From Variovorax boronicumulans (lineage in GTDB: Bacteria; Pseudomonadota; Gammaproteobacteria; Burkholderiales; Burkholderiaceae_C): a DNA stretch of 64,000 nt. Shown piece after piece: positions 8,665-17,267 of the stretch. How positions within the stretch are numbered: position 1 is the stretch's first letter; each line of letters opens with the position of its first letter. The DNA lies in NCBI RefSeq assembly GCF_030812215.1, contig NZ_JAUSSG010000010.1, positions 248,001 through 312,000 on the forward strand. Reading direction: 5' to 3'. Position numbers and translations under genes: made by a program. The notes under the pieces were generated by a model. The model saw nothing but the letters and a program-made list of their open reading frames with translations. It was not told the origin of the DNA and ran no database searches.

Positions 8665-9519
8665 ATGACTGAACTCGTTGTTCGCCGCCTGCTGATCGAC
8701 CTGCAATCGCCCTTTGCCCGCAACTGGTGCGGCGGCGATGCATTCTCGACCGCCTTCTTCAATGCCCTGTCGATGAGCTTTCCCTTCGGCGAGCAGTTCT
8801 TCATCGATGCCGTTCGCGACGCCGTGGCCACGCTGCCGCCCGAGGTGCAGGAGAAGTACCGCGCCGACGTGCGCGGCTTCATCGGCCAGGAGGCCACGCA
8901 CCGGCGCATTCACTCGCTCTTCAACAACCACCTGGAGAACCAGGGGCTGGTCGATGGCTGGACGGCACGCGCGAACAAGCGCTTGGCGCTGATGGAAGAA
9001 GCCGATCCGCGCCACGCGCTGGCGGTCACCGCCGCCACCGAACACTTCACCGCGATGTTCGCCGAGTGGCTGCTGGCTCGTCCCGAGATCCTCGACGGCG
9101 CGGAGCCGCGGCTGCGCACCATGTGGCTGTGGCACAGCGCCGAAGAGCTGGAGCACAAGTCCGTCGCCTTCGACATCTACAAGGCCACGGGTGGTTCGGA
9201 CGAATGGCGCAGGCGCTGGTTCCGCCGCGTGACCGTGATGTTCCTCGGCGACCTGATGCACCAGACCATCGACAACCTGCGCCATGAAAAGCAGTTGTGG
9301 AAATGGGCCACCTGGAAGAGCGCGGCGCGCATCCTGCTGAGCAAGAACGGCCTGCTGCGCGGCAACCTGGGCGGCTGGCGCAGTTACCTGCGTGCCGACT
9401 TCCATCCGGCGCAGCAGGACAGCAGCCTGTCGACGCGTTGGCTGGCCGACAACCGGGCGCAGTACACGCCCGTGGGTGCCGCGCCAGAGGCGCCCCCTGC
9501 TGCCGCCGTAGCGGCTTAG
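8665..9519 (+). CDS. Ferritin-like diiron protein, putative metal-dependent hydrolase family (PF10118-like)
   Basis: A 284-residue protein. Its carboxylate/histidine pattern fits a ferritin-like di-iron site: E43, E76xxH79 (in QEATH), E126 (in ATEHF) and E161xxH164 (in EELEH). This is the E, ExxH, E, ExxH order of di-iron carboxylate proteins. The family is annotated as predicted metal-dependent hydrolase without a firmly known reaction. It is transcribed divergently from tetR behind two shared inverted repeats and converges with the hypothetical gene at 9516 (4-nt overlap of stops). It may be the regulated target of the TetR protein. Confidence 0.8.
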   Translation: MTELVVRRLLIDLQSPFARNWCGGDAFSTAFFNALSMSFPFGEQFFIDAVRDAVATLPPEVQEKYRADVRGFIGQEATHRRIHSLFNNHLENQGLVDGWTARANKRLALMEEADPRHALAVTAATEHFTAMFAEWLLARPEILDGAEPRLRTMWLWHSAEELEHKSVAFDIYKATGGSDEWRRRWFRRVTVMFLGDLMHQTIDNLRHEKQLWKWATWKSAARILLSKNGLLRGNLGGWRSYLRADFHPAQQDSSLSTRWLADNRAQYTPVGAAPEAPPAAAVAA

Positions 9520-10335: not shown

Positions 10336-10587
10336 TTAGCCCGAAGAGGCTTCCGACTGTTCCAGCGCTTCATCGAGCGCCTTGCACGAAGGCGCGCACA
10401 CGGTTTGCGACTTGCCCAGCACCTGGCGTGTGCGCAGTTGCGAGCGCACACGGTGCTTGCCGCACATGAAGCAGGACATGGTCGCCCCGCTGAAAGACGC
10501 CGAAGCGCGGAACGGGGAACCCGGTGTCTTGGTCTTGTAGCGCAGGCCGTCCGCCACCACTGCCGTCTTCACTTCACCCTTCGCCAT
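10336..10587 (-). CDS. Small hypothetical protein with a CxxC motif
   Basis: An 83-residue basic protein, unrecognised. It carries a CFMC motif followed by GKHRVRSQLRTR and two further Cys (in TVCAPSC), giving four Cys that could bind a metal or nucleic acid as a zinc ribbon (inference). Its start overlaps the end of the preceding gene by 14 nt, so it is probably the last gene of the minus-strand operon that begins with the phospholipase D-like gene at 17136. Confidence 0.65.
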   Translation of the reverse strand: MAKGEVKTAVVADGLRYKTKTPGSPFRASASFSGATMSCFMCGKHRVRSQLRTRQVLGKSQTVCAPSCKALDEALEQSEASSG

Positions 10588-10942
10588 GCGTCTTGTCCTT
10601 GTTCGTTTTGGCACCGCCCATGGCGCGTGCAATGGCTTCCCGAGCGCTGACTTCAGCCGCAAGGGAAACATCCAATGCCGAGCGGCAAAGCCCGGCGTGC
10701 TGATAGTTGAGGTTCTCATAAACCTCGGATGCGGCCGGATAGGCATCGAGCAGGCGGCCCAGATCGGCGCCTGGCGCGACATCCTCGAACGCATGCACCA
10801 GGTGCTCGACCACCGAGCGGTACTGCTCGGCGCCAACGGGCACGGCGCTGTGCTCGAGCCGCTCCAGCAGTTGAGCCAGCACATGGGTCACTGCCAGATC
10901 GGTCTTGGGGGACGGATTATGGGTCGTGTTCATGGTTCGCAT
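10574..10942 (-). CDS. Hypothetical protein of the lipid operon
   Basis: An unrecognised 122-residue, mostly helical acidic protein (VLAQLLERLEHS, SVVEHLVHAFEDV). It has no signal peptide or membrane segment. Start codons at 10942 and 10933 are both possible and neither has a clear ribosome site. It begins 17 nt after the stop of the 303-residue gene and overlaps the small CxxC gene, so it is co-transcribed with the ketosynthase-containing operon. The size would suit a carrier or accessory protein, but no phosphopantetheine DSL/DSV attachment motif is visible. Confidence 0.6.
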   Translation of the reverse strand: MRTMNTTHNPSPKTDLAVTHVLAQLLERLEHSAVPVGAEQYRSVVEHLVHAFEDVAPGADLGRLLDAYPAASEVYENLNYQHAGLCRSALDVSLAAEVSAREAIARAMGGAKTNKDKTHGEG

Positions 10943-10959
10943 CTGGGGGCAGCATACGC

Positions 10960-11871
10960 CTATGCAAGTGGCTGGTCGTACAGGGCCGTCTCCGGCTCCC
11001 CTGCTTTCCGGGCTGCCTGCATGCGCTGGAGCAGGCTGTGGAGCATTTCCGTGGACAGCCCGTGGATCACCAGCCGGTGCCCCGCCCGCAGGGTCGACAG
11101 GGGTACCAACGGGTGCTTGTTGTTGACCAGAATCAGATGCTCGGGCGCGTTCAGGATGGTCGCCGTGTAGATGCCGATGGTTTCGTCCAGCTGCAGGGAG
11201 TTGGCCGCGCGCCAGAAATCGTTGTCGGTCAGCATCAGCTGGTAGAGCGGCGTGAAAAGTTCGATGGCGCTTTGCAGGTCGAGGAAATTGAGCCTGCCAT
11301 GGGGCATGTCCTCCAGCCGCAGCCCCGGCTCCTTGATCATCGAGAAATCGACCTCCTCCGCCTTGCACAGCGCAACGCCCTTCTCGCGCAGCGCGGTGTT
11401 CAGGCGGATCACGAAATTGAAGAGGTTCAGGTCGTGCTTGAGGAACATCTCGTCCTTCAGCGCGTCGATGTCCGCCGGCTCCAGCGGGTTTGTTGTGACG
11501 GGTGCCGGCGAGTTGCGCCCGATGAACGCCAGCACCTGCGACCCCAGGTGAAAATGCCGCAGGATCAGCCAGTTCGCCTCCGGCGACACGAAGCGCTTGA
11601 GCCCCCATGCCAGAAAGCGGTGCAGCAGCATCGAGTGCGACCAGTTGCGCGGCACGAACACCTTCACGACCTGGATCAGGATGATCGTCAGCCGCGCGAT
11701 CGGCCTGAGGAACGGCAGCAGGTACTGCCGCGAGCCCGAGCTCGAATCGGCGAGCCACGCCGACTTGACGTTGTCCGGCAGCGGCGTGCTCTGGTCGAGA
11801 TAGAGCGCGAGCCACGGGCTCGGATCGCGCTCGTCGTGCGCTTGCGTCAGGAATTCAGGCGTTCGGCTCAT
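10960..11871 (-). CDS. Conserved protein of unknown function, coupled to the ketosynthase fusion gene
   Basis: A 303-residue protein that I do not recognise as a named enzyme. A hydrophobic stretch (about residues 56-72, IARLTIILIQVVKVFVP) suggests membrane contact. The rest is helical, with many His, Asp and Glu (LRHFHLGSQ, MFLKHDLNLFNFVIRLN, LFTPLYQLMLTDNDFW). Its ATG overlaps the TGA of the ketosynthase-diiron gene (ATGA), so it is made in fixed ratio with it and is probably a partner in the same lipid pathway. The HDxNLFNF and ETIGIYTATI segments would make good family probes. Confidence 0.65.
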   Translation of the reverse strand: MSRTPEFLTQAHDERDPSPWLALYLDQSTPLPDNVKSAWLADSSSGSRQYLLPFLRPIARLTIILIQVVKVFVPRNWSHSMLLHRFLAWGLKRFVSPEANWLILRHFHLGSQVLAFIGRNSPAPVTTNPLEPADIDALKDEMFLKHDLNLFNFVIRLNTALREKGVALCKAEEVDFSMIKEPGLRLEDMPHGRLNFLDLQSAIELFTPLYQLMLTDNDFWRAANSLQLDETIGIYTATILNAPEHLILVNNKHPLVPLSTLRAGHRLVIHGLSTEMLHSLLQRMQAARKAGEPETALYDQPLA

Positions 11872-13829
11872 TGGAAACCTCCGCCTGCGGCTGCGGTATT
11901 CGTCTTGGGGCGGCCCGGCGGCTCATGCGGCATCCGCTCCGTGATGTGCTGGAACTGCATCAGGTACAGCGCGGCCGTATGCCGCGCCGTATCGATGATC
12001 TGGCGGGCCGCGCGGGCCTGTCCTTCGATGGCCATGACCATCTCGACCGCGGCGAGCCAGCGGTTCAGGTGGTTCTCGTCGTTGTGGCCGTGGTACTCCA
12101 GAAAGCGGAAGGCGTCGGGCGGCAGCTTCACGCTCGCCTTGATGAGCGGCAGCAGCGCCGGCACGATGCGCTGGCCCGTGCCTTCGATGATGTAGATCGC
12201 GCCCAAAAGGCCGATCGGGTCGCGTGTGGCGGCCAGGCCGTGCAGGTAGGCGTTGAGCGCCTCGCCGCCGGGGTTGCGGCGCAGGTCGTCGATCTGCGCA
12301 ACCGTGCCGCCGGCTTTCTTGTAGTCGCTGAAGAGGATGTTGAAGTCGTTCTGCTCCTCACCTGCGTGCACATCGATCAGCGAAGCCAGCATCTGGTACG
12401 GCTCGCTCAGCGAGGCGGCGCCTTCGCGCATCCACTTGCTGCCTTCGCGCACCTGCGGCACCCACTGCTCCATCCAGTTCAGGTAGTCGGGCAAGGCCAG
12501 GCGGCGCTCGCGGATCTGCCGGATCAGCGGCGTGCGCCAGACCCGGGAGCGGTAGTCGTGCCAGATGGCGGCCAGTTCGGTGAGCAAGGCGCCCAGGCCT
12601 TCGGGAGCGGCGGCGGGATCGTGCGGGGGCGCGATGACGAGATCGTCGTCCGGTACGGCGGCCGCGTGGGGTGCCGCCATCGTCACGGGCGCTGCATCGG
12701 CCGCTTCGACTTCGAGCAGCATGTACGCCGCCATGAAGCGTCCTGACTCGGGCACGTAGCAGAAGATCTGCTCGCCCGGCTTCAACGTCTTGGTGTGCAG
12801 GAATTCGGCCAGCATGACGAGGATCGACGCCGCGCCCGTGTTGCCGCGCCACGCGAGATTACTCCACCAGCGCTCGCGCGGAATCGACAGGTCGGCCTTG
12901 TTCATCAGGTCTTCGACCACCGGGATGAATTTTTCCGACGAGTAGTGGCACAGGAAGTGATCGACCCGCTTCGGATCGACCCAGCCGTCGCGCACCAGCC
13001 CCGCGTACTCGTGAATGCCGATGTCGAACAGGTGCGGCAGCAGGCGGATGTCCTGCCGCAGCGACAACGCGCCGGCGGCTTCGGCCTCCGCCCAGGAACC
13101 GAAGTCGAGGTGGCCGCGCGCGCGGTCTTCGGTCAGGCCGAGCTGCATGCACACGGGGTAGTCGCCCGAGAAGGCGCGCTGATGTACCCACCTCAACTTC
13201 AGGCGCAACCCGGGCGCGCCGGCCAGCGCAGGCGAACCATCGGACAGCAGCAACGCCCCCGCGCCATCGGACAGCATCCAGCGCAGGAAGTGCGAGTCGA
13301 AGTCGGTTTCATAGCCACGCGCCGCGAAGCGCGAGCGTTTGAAGAGCCGCGACGGCATCTCGCTCGCCACCGCGATCGCGCTGCGATGCGCCCCCAGTTC
13401 GATGCCCTGCGCAGCCGTCTGGATCGCCGAGACGCCGGCCGCGCAGATGCCATGCACCGAATGCGTCTCCATCGGCTGGGCGGCGAGCTCGCCCTGGATC
13501 ATGTTGGCGAAGCCCGGCATCAGCGTGTCGCCGCCCGAGGAGCCGCTGGCCAGCAGCGACACGCGCGACAGCTCCGCGCCGCCGCGCTTGAGGCAATCGC
13601 GGATCGCACCGGCGGCGAGTTGCGCATTGCTGTGCTGCGTCACGCCCTCCGCATCGATGGCGTAGTGCCGCGTGAGGATGCCGTTCTCAGTGAGGATGCG
13701 CCGCTTGATGCGCTCGGACATGCGGTTGAGCGGCGCGATGTACGCGTCCATGCGGTCGTTGGGAATGGGATCGCCCGGCATGAAATAACCGGCGCTCTCG
13801 AGGTACACGCGTTGGAATGAAACAGGCAT
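11868..13829 (-). CDS. KASIII-type beta-ketosynthase (StlD/DarB-like) fused to a heme-oxygenase-like diiron oxidase domain
   Basis: A 653-residue two-domain enzyme. Residues 1-375 are a FabH-fold ketosynthase: catalytic C129 (SVHGICAAG), H295 (FLCHYSSEK) and N330 (WRGNTGAAS) form the Cys-His-Asn triad, similar to the StlD/DarB group. An Ala/Pro linker (375-410) leads to a helical domain (410-635) with E549 and an HxxxDxxH motif (H580, D584, H587). The E-to-HxxxDxxH spacing of 31 matches heme-oxygenase-like diiron oxidases such as CADD. The expected first ligand pair (ExxxxxxH) is not obvious; H488, E491, E492 and D495 lie there instead. The gene sits 3 nt after a desaturase and overlaps the next gene by 4 nt. 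The likely role is chain condensation followed by oxidation or decarboxylation of the acyl product (inference). Confidence 0.82.
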   Translation of the reverse strand: MPVSFQRVYLESAGYFMPGDPIPNDRMDAYIAPLNRMSERIKRRILTENGILTRHYAIDAEGVTQHSNAQLAAGAIRDCLKRGGAELSRVSLLASGSSGGDTLMPGFANMIQGELAAQPMETHSVHGICAAGVSAIQTAAQGIELGAHRSAIAVASEMPSRLFKRSRFAARGYETDFDSHFLRWMLSDGAGALLLSDGSPALAGAPGLRLKLRWVHQRAFSGDYPVCMQLGLTEDRARGHLDFGSWAEAEAAGALSLRQDIRLLPHLFDIGIHEYAGLVRDGWVDPKRVDHFLCHYSSEKFIPVVEDLMNKADLSIPRERWWSNLAWRGNTGAASILVMLAEFLHTKTLKPGEQIFCYVPESGRFMAAYMLLEVEAADAAPVTMAAPHAAAVPDDDLVIAPPHDPAAAPEGLGALLTELAAIWHDYRSRVWRTPLIRQIRERRLALPDYLNWMEQWVPQVREGSKWMREGAASLSEPYQMLASLIDVHAGEEQNDFNILFSDYKKAGGTVAQIDDLRRNPGGEALNAYLHGLAATRDPIGLLGAIYIIEGTGQRIVPALLPLIKASVKLPPDAFRFLEYHGHNDENHLNRWLAAVEMVMAIEGQARAARQIIDTARHTAALYLMQFQHITERMPHEPPGRPKTNTAAAGGGFQ

Positions 13830-13832
13830 GGT

Positions 13833-14786
13833 TCAGTGAGTGGAGGAATCGGGAGGCATCAGCGAGCGGCTGCGAAAACGCGGCCACACGGTCCCCAGCA
13901 CGAAGACCCGCGCCATGTAGGGAACCAGCCCGCCCTCGTTGAGCACGGGATTGACCTGCGCGCGGTAGCGCGTACGGTGCAGGTGCGTGAGCTCGGACCA
14001 ATGGGCATGCGGGTTCTCGTGATGTGCGGTGTGCAGGCCGATGTTGAACAGCAACGGGTTCACCAGCCCTTCGAAATTGCGTGCGTAGTTCAATCGGCCA
14101 CCGGCGGTATCGCCCGGTGCTCCCTGGTCCGCAGCGTTGCGCGGCGCCTTCCGGCCATCGGCGTGCGCATGCTGCAGGTAGTTGGTCGCGAGCAGCCAGT
14201 GCAGGCCATGCAGCTGCGGCACGATCACAAAGAGCAAGGCCTTGCGCCAATCGACCGCCAGCAGCACGGCCCAGCTCGCAAGCCAAACGGCGTACTGCGC
14301 GATGCAGTAGTGCCACGCACCGCGCTTGTGTACCCGCAGCCGCGCCAGCCAGCCGACGAACACCGGCATCAGCACCCAGACCGCCTGGAACGGATGCAGC
14401 AGGTAGCCCCACAGGTGGTTGGTGTCGCCGCCGAATCGGTAGGTTCGTGCCACGTCTTTCGGTCCATGCCGGTGGCGGTGGTGGTTGGCAACGTGCGCGG
14501 GCCAGAACACGAAGGTCGGATGGCCCTGCAGCAGCGTGATCCAGAAATCGGTCAGCCGGTTCATGCGCCGCCCGCGCCACATGCGCAGGTGCACGTGGTT
14601 GTGGTGGATCACGCCGACGCCGAGCGTGAGGAAAAGCATCAGCGCATAGAGCAGCGCGTTGAAGCCGTGCACCCACTGCCACGCGACCAACGCCGGCAGC
14701 GCGACGAGGTACGCGAGGCTTTGCCAGTCGCGCCAATGGCGAAGGCGCGGCAGGCGGCGCAACGGCGTCTCAGGCAGGCGTGCCAT
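13833..14786 (-). CDS. Membrane fatty acid desaturase
   Basis: A 317-residue integral-membrane di-iron desaturase. The three histidine boxes are present: HHNHVH at 61-66, HVANHHRHRH at 98-107 and HTAHH at 252-256, plus an additional QHAH at 205-208 before the third box. Hydrophobic segments lie between them. It would introduce a double bond, or act as a related oxygenase, on an acyl chain. The start overlaps the hydroxylase gene by 17 nt and the stop is 3 nt before the ketosynthase fusion, so all are coupled. The actual acyl substrate is not visible. Confidence 0.9.
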   Translation of the reverse strand: MARLPETPLRRLPRLRHWRDWQSLAYLVALPALVAWQWVHGFNALLYALMLFLTLGVGVIHHNHVHLRMWRGRRMNRLTDFWITLLQGHPTFVFWPAHVANHHRHRHGPKDVARTYRFGGDTNHLWGYLLHPFQAVWVLMPVFVGWLARLRVHKRGAWHYCIAQYAVWLASWAVLLAVDWRKALLFVIVPQLHGLHWLLATNYLQHAHADGRKAPRNAADQGAPGDTAGGRLNYARNFEGLVNPLLFNIGLHTAHHENPHAHWSELTHLHRTRYRAQVNPVLNEGGLVPYMARVFVLGTVWPRFRSRSLMPPDSSTH

Positions 14787-15552
14787 GCCGCCGCGCCTCT
14801 TTGTCCCGGAAGGCCTGGAAGTGCGGCTCGGCCGCGTCCGCCGCGATGCGCGTCCTGAACAGCCGGTCCATGAAGGTGAACTGGAAGCCGTAGTTGCCGT
14901 TGTGGCAGGCGTGGTGCAGATGGTGCCGGCGGCTCGCCGCGAACCAGTGGCTGTACGACACCCCGGTGAAGAAGTCGTAGTTCGAATGCCCGACGCAGTT
15001 AAAGAACAAGCTGAACACCGGCACCGCTGCCAGCGACCAGAAGCTGAAGTCGTGCACCACCATCGGCAACAGGATCACGTTGCCGAGCATCAGCGCCTCG
15101 ATCGGGTGAAAGCTGTAGGTAGCCCATGGCGTGGTGACGAACGAGCGGTGATGCGGCCCGTGAAAGCGGCGCAGCAGCCGCGTGTGCAGCAGGCGGTGGT
15201 TGATCCAGAAATGCACGTCGTTCCAAACCGCGAGCACGAGGATCTCGACAGTGATCTGCCGCCATCCTGCATCCGGGTCGAGCCGCGCCCATCCCAGCTG
15301 CAGCAAGCCCCACGGAAACACCATGCCCAGCCCGAAGATCAGCACCGAGATGCCCGACTGCCCGAGCTCCCGCCGCAACTGCCCCGGCTGCAATGGCCGC
15401 GGATCGAGCACCCGCCCGATGCCCAGCGCCGGCAGCACCCGCTTCGTCAGCAGCCAGGTGATGGCGCCGAAGCCCAGGTAGATGCCGCCGAAGAAAAGCA
15501 AGCCCCACAGCATGACCTGCAGGGCGGGCAGTGAAGTGAAGGTCTGCGCCAT
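14770..15552 (-). CDS. Sterol desaturase / fatty acid hydroxylase superfamily protein
   Basis: A 260-residue membrane oxygenase with the superfamily His pattern: H114 and H119 (HFWINH), H123, HGPHH at 131-135, H149 (YSFHP), and HHLHHACH around 210-217. At least four hydrophobic segments flank these boxes. Family members hydroxylate or desaturate lipid tails using a non-heme di-iron centre. It starts 9 nt after the phospholipase D-like gene and overlaps the desaturase gene, placing two membrane oxygenases and a ketosynthase in one operon. Confidence 0.9.
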   Translation of the reverse strand: MAQTFTSLPALQVMLWGLLFFGGIYLGFGAITWLLTKRVLPALGIGRVLDPRPLQPGQLRRELGQSGISVLIFGLGMVFPWGLLQLGWARLDPDAGWRQITVEILVLAVWNDVHFWINHRLLHTRLLRRFHGPHHRSFVTTPWATYSFHPIEALMLGNVILLPMVVHDFSFWSLAAVPVFSLFFNCVGHSNYDFFTGVSYSHWFAASRRHHLHHACHNGNYGFQFTFMDRLFRTRIAADAAEPHFQAFRDKEARRHGTPA

Positions 15553-15561
15553 CCCCCGAGG

Positions 15562-17136
15562 CTACAACAGCATCTCGGGAACGATCGGGGCGATGAGCCG
15601 GTTGTAGAAGCGCTGGAAGAACCCTGACTCGGGCTCGGAGGTGAGGATCACCTCTTTCTCGCCGTCGTTGGTCAGCCACTGCAGCGTGCCGGTGTCCTTG
15701 GCCAGCCGCAGGCGGTAGGAGTTCTGCAGCTTGCTGATGTTGATGATGCGCAGCATCTCGCGCGCCAACTGCGGACTGTCGACCACCAGCCCCATCTCGG
15801 TGTTCTGGCTGGCCGAGCGAGGGTCGAGATTCATCGAGCCGATGAAGATGCGCGTCCTGTCGATGGCGGCGGTCTTGGCGTGCAGCCGCCCGAGCGACTT
15901 GCCGAACATGCCGAAGCGCTCGCCCTTGCTCGTGCGTTGCGGGCTCAGCTCGTACAGGTCGGCGCCGCTTTGCAGCAGCCGCTCGCGGTAGCGCGCATAG
16001 CCGGTGTGCACCAGCGGCTCGTCGTTGGCGGCGAGCGAATTGGTCAGCAGCGTGAGCTTGACCTTGCGCTTGGCCAGATCGTCGAATGCCGCCATGCCGC
16101 GTTCGCCCGGCACGAGGTACGGCGAGGTCAGGTCGACCTCGGTCTTGGCGTCCATCAGAAGCCCCCAGACCTTCATCGTCACGCTCGTGGAGATCGCTTC
16201 ATCGGCCGTCATCGTCTCGGGCTTGGTCGGCGGGTCGGCGATGGCGCGCGCCTCGCCCCACAGGAGGCCCATGCGGCCGCCATCGAGCTCTTCGGCGATC
16301 GGGCCATAGCCCAGGATGTCGGACGGCGGCAGCACGATCTTCGGCGGCGGCGCAGCCATGCCGATCCAGTCGTCGAACTCGGCGCTGCCGGGCGTGCGGC
16401 CGCCCTCGCCCTTCACGATGTCGGCAATGGGCCAGACCTGCACGCTGTTCCAGTAGGCATCGAAGATGGATTCGAGCTGCGGCACCACCTTGCCGACCAC
16501 CAGCGCATCCATGTCGATGAAGTTCTGCGCCTCGCTCAGCACGAAATACTCGTCGGCGATATTGCGGCCGCCCACCACCGCCATCGTGCCATCGGCGATG
16601 AAAAGCTTGTTGTGCATGCGGTGGTTGAGCCGCACGATCTCGAAGGGCGAGGCCACAAGACGCGAGAGAAAACCGTTGCGGCCGCAGCAGAACGGGTTGT
16701 AGAGCCGCACCTGCACATTGGGCGTTTCCGAGAGCGCCAGCAGCAATTGCTGGCTCCTGGCGGTGTAGAGGTCGTCCACCAGCACCCGCACCTTCACGCC
16801 CCGCGCCGCGGCCTCGCGCAGCGTGCGCAGCAGCAGGCGGCCGACGGCGTCGTTCTCGAGCTGGTAGTACTGCACCACCAGCGACTGCTGCGCGCGTTGC
16901 GCGAGCTGGATGCGCGCGTCGAGCGAATAGACGCCCAGCGGCATCAGCCGAAAGCCCGAATGCTCTCCCGGCGGCGTGGAAGCGGCCGCAATCCTGGCAA
17001 GCCTGGTCGATGGGTCGGCCAAGGCGGCGTGTTCGGCAGGGCGATCTTTCGCCGGCGGCAGCGAGCCGCAGGCGGCGAGCACGGCCAGAAGAAGGCCCGC
17101 GAACGCCATGCGCAGAAGTCGATCCCAGCCGTTCAT
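15562..17136 (-). CDS. Phospholipase D family lipoprotein (ClsC-like)
   Basis: A 524-residue protein with a lipoprotein signal peptide (lipobox LAAC, Cys at residue 23) and two HKD motifs, HNKLFIAD at about 175 and HAKTAAID at about 419, the two halves of the phospholipase D active site. The closest functional type is the ClsC/YmdC cardiolipin synthase branch, which transfers phosphatidyl groups. Alternative starts at 17151 and 17175 exist; 17136 gives the best signal peptide. It is the first gene of the lipid operon and is divergent from the peroxiredoxin. It may attach or exchange a headgroup on the lipid made by the downstream enzymes (inference). Confidence 0.85.
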   Translation of the reverse strand: MNGWDRLLRMAFAGLLLAVLAACGSLPPAKDRPAEHAALADPSTRLARIAAASTPPGEHSGFRLMPLGVYSLDARIQLAQRAQQSLVVQYYQLENDAVGRLLLRTLREAAARGVKVRVLVDDLYTARSQQLLLALSETPNVQVRLYNPFCCGRNGFLSRLVASPFEIVRLNHRMHNKLFIADGTMAVVGGRNIADEYFVLSEAQNFIDMDALVVGKVVPQLESIFDAYWNSVQVWPIADIVKGEGGRTPGSAEFDDWIGMAAPPPKIVLPPSDILGYGPIAEELDGGRMGLLWGEARAIADPPTKPETMTADEAISTSVTMKVWGLLMDAKTEVDLTSPYLVPGERGMAAFDDLAKRKVKLTLLTNSLAANDEPLVHTGYARYRERLLQSGADLYELSPQRTSKGERFGMFGKSLGRLHAKTAAIDRTRIFIGSMNLDPRSASQNTEMGLVVDSPQLAREMLRIINISKLQNSYRLRLAKDTGTLQWLTNDGEKEVILTSEPESGFFQRFYNRLIAPIVPEMLL

Positions 17137-17267
17137 GATGATGATTTCCATCTTTCGTTTTTCAGTCGCTGCCATGAATACGCTGGCCGGGGTGCGGCAG
17201 TTTCATTTCGCTTCTCCGAAAGGTGCGCCGTCCTAGAATTCGCGTCACACCTGCACGGAGTTACATC

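Follow-up and report, generated by a model that had tools for sequence, protein, structure and literature searches.

The DNA analysed here is a window of 64,000 nucleotides from Variovorax boronicumulans (contig NZ_JAUSSG010000010.1; all coordinates are positions within this window), in which positions 10336-17175 hold seven reading frames, all on the minus strand. Central to them is a single frame of 653 aa (11868-13829), KS::HDO, in which a ketosynthase (KS) is joined to a heme-oxygenase-like domain (HDO) and which matches, each time above the cut-off, the KASIII C-terminal domain ACP_syn_III_C (7.1e-8) and Haem_oxygenas_2 (7.8e-9), a domain of iron-containing redox enzymes. The ketosynthase occupies residues ~1-376 (12702-13829), followed by a variable linker (~377-410) and by the heme-oxygenase-like domain (~411-630; 11940-12599). 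Upstream lie a gene of the membrane fatty-acid hydroxylase family (FAH, 14770-15552; PF04116 FA_hydroxylase, 8.6e-22) and one of the membrane fatty-acid desaturase family (DES, 13833-14786; PF00487 FA_desaturase, 5e-19), and downstream a gene for a 303-aa, predicted all-helical protein of the family DUF6999 (PF22523, 10960-11871; Pfam 8.9e-132). The outer genes encode a phospholipase D (PLD)-like lipoprotein with two HKD motifs (15562-17175; PLDc_2, 1.9e-37), whose frame has an internal ATG at 17136, where the initial annotation of this DNA had placed its end, and, at the other side, a 119-aa protein without family (10574-10933) and an 83-aa Cys-containing protein (10336-10587). From the PLD-like gene to the last frame the spacings are 9 nt, an overlap of 17, 3 nt, an overlap of 4, 26 nt (17 nt if an earlier ATG at 10942 is used for the 119-aa frame) and an overlap of 14, so that the close packing on one strand is as initially described. 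The last three products had been listed as unknown proteins; the first of them belongs to a Pfam family, DUF6999, although the function of that family is indeed unknown.

The spread of these genes was followed in 80 named loci, the best 80 of 89 (from Variovorax, Pseudorhodoferax, Achromobacter, Bordetella, Pigmentiphaga, Pararobbsia and others). A genome survey for the fusion, as the initial annotation had proposed, found a single KS-HDO frame in 78 of the 80, FAH in 78 and DES in 77 (the latter two at identities of at least 50 %); one locus, L066, is a 3.3-kb contig too short to hold FAH and DES. The PLD-like gene (at least 60 % identity) is found in 39/80 and the 119-aa gene (at least 50 %) in 37/80, all of them titled Variovorax and at times apart from the core, and the 83-aa gene, which was not counted, shows in the locus listing a pattern of a Variovorax neighbour like that of the PLD-like gene. 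The four core genes occur without these three in Achromobacter, Bordetella, Pigmentiphaga and Pararobbsia, and in Achromobacter and Bordetella they stand beside other neighbours. The conserved unit is the four genes FAH-DES-KS::HDO-DUF6999. The seven-gene pathway of the initial annotation is rejected, its PLD-like and last two genes being Variovorax neighbours, and conservation of the neighbours holds for FAH, DES and DUF6999 alone; nor does the pathway end in a headgroup-transfer enzyme, since the PLD-like gene is the first of the series and not the last. The closest DUF6999 genes are from Variovorax (99 %).

In two genomes the operon is split: PLD-FAH-DUF6999-U6-U7 lie on one contig (L057, L058) and DES-KS::HDO on another (L169, L170), and all four core genes are kept. 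Loss of KS::HDO at L057 and L058 was considered and rejected, the fusion and DES being found on the other contigs; here a natural rearrangement has placed FAH together with DUF6999 and, unlinked to them, DES together with KS::HDO. At L109 (6478-7635), in another family of the order, a different PLD-family gene lies directly upstream of FAH; PLD genes may therefore have joined this neighbourhood on more than one occasion.

Over 84 fused sequences, the window included, the KS and HDO domains are separated by 33 to 76 residues, a range that suggests a flexible tether. The residues singled out by the initial annotation (C129, H295 and N330 in the ketosynthase; E549, H580, D584 and H587 in the HDO), and also E157, are invariant in 84/84, which rules out that the fusion arose by chance or as a sequencing artefact.

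By sequence, the ketosynthase is closest to StlD (hmmsearch 2e-75, the next entry reaching 3e-10). An AlphaFold2 model of KS::HDO, built with 33 sequences (the window and 32 relatives; mean pLDDT 68), places residues 6-375 on StlD 5gk0 with Z 27.3 (VIA-align; 336 aligned, rmsd 3.7), and the OleA structures come next in the fold table, with a best Z of 23.4. StlD/DarB is the nearest subfamily by both sequence and fold, and the catalytic Cys-His-Asn set common to both is intact, which bears out the initial assignment of this domain. E157 falls, by counting on the alignment, at the position of StlD Glu154, a residue that we take to have a role in StlD. OleA, the head-to-head condensing ketosynthase that joins two acyl chains, has the KASIII-like fold in common with the KS, but its similarity is clearly lower than that of StlD. 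The KS differs from StlD and DarB in its partners, an HDO that is either part of the same chain or encoded next to it and a DUF6999 protein, and also in scoring 315.7 bits against the NCBIfam model for StlD/DarB (NF005293), below its curated cut-off of 450; two split relatives reach 322 and 372 bits.

The C-terminal half of KS::HDO matches PF14518 Haem_oxygenas_2 with 36 bits (cut-off 28.9). In VIA-align, the model aligns with 3dde (residues 410-638; Z 24.6, 223 aligned, rmsd 2.3) and CADD 1rcw (residues 414-631; Z 22.9, 209 aligned, rmsd 2.1), both exceeding the Z of ~13 below which the program warns of chance matches between helical bundles. Ten-residue means of pLDDT are 83-94 over 441-550, 62-79 over 551-590 and 83-92 over 591-630. 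According to this model the C-terminal half has a heme-oxygenase-like fold, in agreement with the initial annotation, which a prediction of another fold would have refuted.

Its putative metal site departs from that of the family. In 22/22 diverse KS-linked HDOs, positions 488/492/495/549/580/584/587 read H-E-D-E-H-D-H. The other PF14518 proteins compared came from 48 loci (30 the best of a list and 18 picked for spread), of which 35 could be aligned to the HDO profile, five of them weakly (16-27 bits), and the 13 without a match are uncounted. E549, H580, D584 and H587 are common to all 35; position 495 is His in 35/35, 492 is Glu in 34 (with one gap) and 488 is His in 2. The usual His of helix alpha1 is therefore Asp in all 22 KS-linked HDOs, which have an invariant His seven residues before it, a change overlooked by the initial annotation, although its E549 and HxxxDxxH motifs were right. 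UndA, CADD, SznF and BesC, all of PF14518, have in common with the KS-linked HDOs the fold and, in two core helices, the Glu and H-x3-D-x2-H, but their alpha1 carries E-x2-H where the KS-linked one carries H-x3-E-x2-D, and the KS-linked HDO is fused or operonic with a ketosynthase; for UndA and CADD these are the ligand positions and spacings that we assume. The ligand set thus differs from that of an UndA-type fatty-acid decarboxylase. The best-scoring solved structure, 3dde, is a Shewanella protein of unknown function and a stand-alone chain that, unlike the KS-linked HDO, keeps E-x2-H in the aligned stretch. With the 35 other proteins thinned to nine, the KS-linked HDOs group together (100/98; 17 versus 9 rows).

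Section 4 of a 2026 review of HDOs (PMC13108848) describes a 3H/3C ligand set in most of them and 3H/4C in some; the KS-linked HDO is without the usual 3H/3C set, which includes the alpha1 His. H488, E492 and D495 are spaced by 4 and 3 residues and so could share one helix face, and the putative site may be a 3H/4C set of new arrangement, or, should H488 not be a ligand, hold two His. The domain is predicted to be, probably, an iron enzyme that uses oxygen.

The third core partner scores 438.6 bits for DUF6999, against a gathering threshold of 27. Residues invariant in 22 diverse rows include R48, R105, H106, H146, D147, D198, D229, N251, R266, H270, G271 and E275, a pattern that looks enzymatic and perhaps metal-binding. 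A sequence search of the PDB gave nothing up to E 1, and fold searches with the helical model gave at best E 0.99 in Foldseek and Z 4.2 in VIA-align; with a pLDDT of only 72.7 for that model, the protein may still have a known fold.

The association of the three proteins extends beyond the fusion. In nine split loci (Pseudoalteromonas THAF3, L025; the gammaproteobacteria L111 and L133; and L112 and L128-L132, six genomes from a different class, presumed alphaproteobacterial), separate genes for KS, HDO and DUF6999 adjoin in that order on one strand, without exception. DUF6999 was found in 9/398 genomes drawn from the phylum, all nine among the 20/398 whose KS match reaches E<=1e-40, in 6/289 genomes from the class to which G223 belongs and in 2/197 from the order of G368; the class and order samples each share one genome with the phylum sample, leaving 15 distinct DUF6999 genomes, and in 15/15 KS and HDO lie beside DUF6999. 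Caulobacter vibrioides, a named control genome, has matches to both PF14518 and DUF6999, at genome level only. Distances among KS, HDO and DUF6999 correlate over 22 rows (r 0.954, 0.789 and 0.806, with 0/2000 permutations as high), which is weak evidence because host relatedness alone gives such a correlation.

The two groups of ketosynthases differ in their oxidative partner. DarA was searched in 95 loci, two of which (L057 and L058) carry DUF6999 without KS-HDO, and it was near none of the remaining 93 KS-HDO loci, the window included, nor near L057 or L058. By contrast, DarA adjoins the KS in 13/13 DarB-like loci, a set made of the other 11 of the 20 genomes with a KS match plus the second KS copy of G000 and that of G379; in these 13 loci the HDO and DUF6999 profiles had no match (1.5-kb flanks, two also ~19 kb). 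In an unrooted tree, the 13 DarB-like ketosynthases and 22 KS-HDO ketosynthases lie on opposite sides of a branch with 100/100 support. The fusion is a single clade (100/100), joined by the split L025 and L111 (98/95); the third gammaproteobacterial split form, L133, sits on a long branch and groups with L112 and L128-L132. The initial annotation was thus correct that this is no standard dialkylresorcinol cluster, a candidate rejected here by the absence of DarA near the window KS-HDO and 92 other KS-HDO loci, whereas in dialkylresorcinol and stilbene pathways the partner of the KS is the DarA/StlC aromatase. For Azoarcus, the text matched in PMC3949708 names darB a 'DAR-cyclase' and darA a 'DAR-aromatase'. 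The host has a separate dar-type cluster, with a DarB-like KS of 588 bits (cut-off 450) and a DarH of 488 bits (cut-off 300); at L113 (4324-11424, G000:C1) lie its genes for DarA, the DarB-like KS, DarH, an ABC transporter, an ACP-like protein and a second KS.

This mutual exclusion is the main reason to propose the HDO in the place of DarA. The reading that we favour, with some reserve, is a self-contained lipid operon in which the KS would condense acyl chains and the tethered dimetal HDO would oxidise the product. The ketosynthase (Cys129-His295-Asn330) would accept an acyl chain and, in the manner of StlD and DarB, condense it with another chain, a beta-ketoacyl one, giving probably a dialkyl cyclohexanedione or else a related beta-dicarbonyl. 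The HDO on the same chain would then oxidise this product with O2 at its altered-ligand dimetal site, by dehydrogenation to a resorcinol or by hydroxylation, which would replace the step of DarA. DUF6999, the constant partner, would probably be a helical enzyme or a product-handling protein, and in the fused form the membrane DES and FAH would modify acyl chains or the product; the initial annotation had them feeding KS-HDO, a role that is inferred.

Among the alternatives, the HDO could act on the acyl chain before condensation, either desaturating it or, like UndA, decarboxylating it to an alkene; the modified chain would then be extended or joined by the KS. This is unlikely but deserves weight, since characterised HDOs act mostly on fatty or amino acids, according to section 4 of PMC13108848, and two further acyl-modifying enzymes are present in the operon; the KS-linked HDOs, however, group apart from other PF14518 proteins, have a different ligand set and are tied to one type of KS without DarA nearby, which points to the KS product as substrate. 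Slightly less probable is a linear KS product (a beta-ketoacid, a ketone or an OleA-like condensate) with no ring, which the HDO would cleave or hydroxylate: the place of OleA directly after StlD by fold and the sub-threshold StlD/DarB score agree with it, but StlD is ahead in fold (27.3 versus 23.4) and far ahead in sequence, and E157 is invariant. That the HDO lacks a dimetal site altogether, being metal-free like PqqC or only a scaffold, is improbable, for although the alpha1 His is replaced in every KS-linked HDO and PMC13108848 mentions metal-independent members of the fold, E549, H580, D584 and H587 are kept in all fused, diverse and other PF14518 proteins compared and H488, E492 and D495 have a spacing compatible with one helix face.

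Several observations weigh against a dialkyl product oxidised by a dimetal HDO in DarA's place. With a score under the StlD/DarB cut-off, the KS may have a different chemistry, and its model has pLDDT <50 at 159-187 and 325-331, the latter including N330. Without the alpha1 His, metal binding is not assured, and the model is weaker where the motif lies (block 581-590, with D584 and H587, at pLDDT 62; H580 also within the weaker 551-590). DarA could also be missing because the substrates differ, and not because it has been replaced. The role of DUF6999 is unexplained, with a model of middling confidence, and FAH and DES do not adjoin the split forms. In the fused form, FAH is absent at L067, with no match elsewhere in the genome in a search run without a positive control. 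The loci also vary in the length of their flanks, and some are short contigs. FAH was not found in the 19.9-kb locus of G316 (L110), where the desaturase is divergent (40 %).

Both halves of KS::HDO belong to known superfamilies, and the combination appears undescribed in the open-licence literature: among the matches listed there was no KS-HDO fusion, no paper naming DUF6999 and nothing that matches the pathway, as the initial annotation had expected. The nearest text match among those listed, PMC10849742, concerns N-hydroxypyrrole-forming enzymes, and PMC13108848 nowhere uses the word ketosynthase. The module is sharply defined and testable, one KS group being accompanied by DarA and the other, in every case examined, by HDO and DUF6999. 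Should the HDO carry out the step of DarA, with O2 and a changed metal site, HDO chemistry would be extended to ketosynthase products, with a new ligand arrangement and a first role for DUF6999, and a hidden lipid class would be predicted in common soil and opportunistic bacteria (Variovorax, Achromobacter and Bordetella relatives). The gene set suggests an undescribed kind of oxidised bacterial lipid. The full claim, namely a one-polypeptide machine that condenses and oxidises, unrecognised His-x3-Glu-x2-Asp ligands in alpha1, DUF6999 as a new enzyme family and a new class of oxidised dialkyl lipids over alpha-, beta- and gammaproteobacterial lineages, is a doubtful one taken together.

Additionally, the surroundings of the split forms were inspected, and no shared wider neighbourhood was seen in a choice of neighbour genes, which included a fusion of major facilitator superfamily (MFS) transporter, acyltransferase and AMP-ligase, an RND pump, a chaperonin, an FAD amine oxidase, TelA, BrkB, PhzF, a methyltransferase and TetR, some others being without clear family. 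Only the gammaproteobacteria L025 and L111 have a neighbour in common, a His-rich membrane protein of 185 and 188 aa (L025 11436-11993, L111 10441-11007; 64 % identical, no Pfam match) directly upstream of the split KS, which may be a membrane di-iron oxygenase in the place of the FAH and DES of the fused form. The MFS-acyltransferase-AMP-ligase fusion lies 21 nt behind DUF6999 at L112 (3697-7098) and may be an enzyme that supplies acyl groups or remodels lipids. In the window, beyond the operon, positions 8665-9519 encode a predicted metal-dependent hydrolase (PF10118, 254.8 bits), whose gene is found in the same neighbourhood in 30 loci, the window included.

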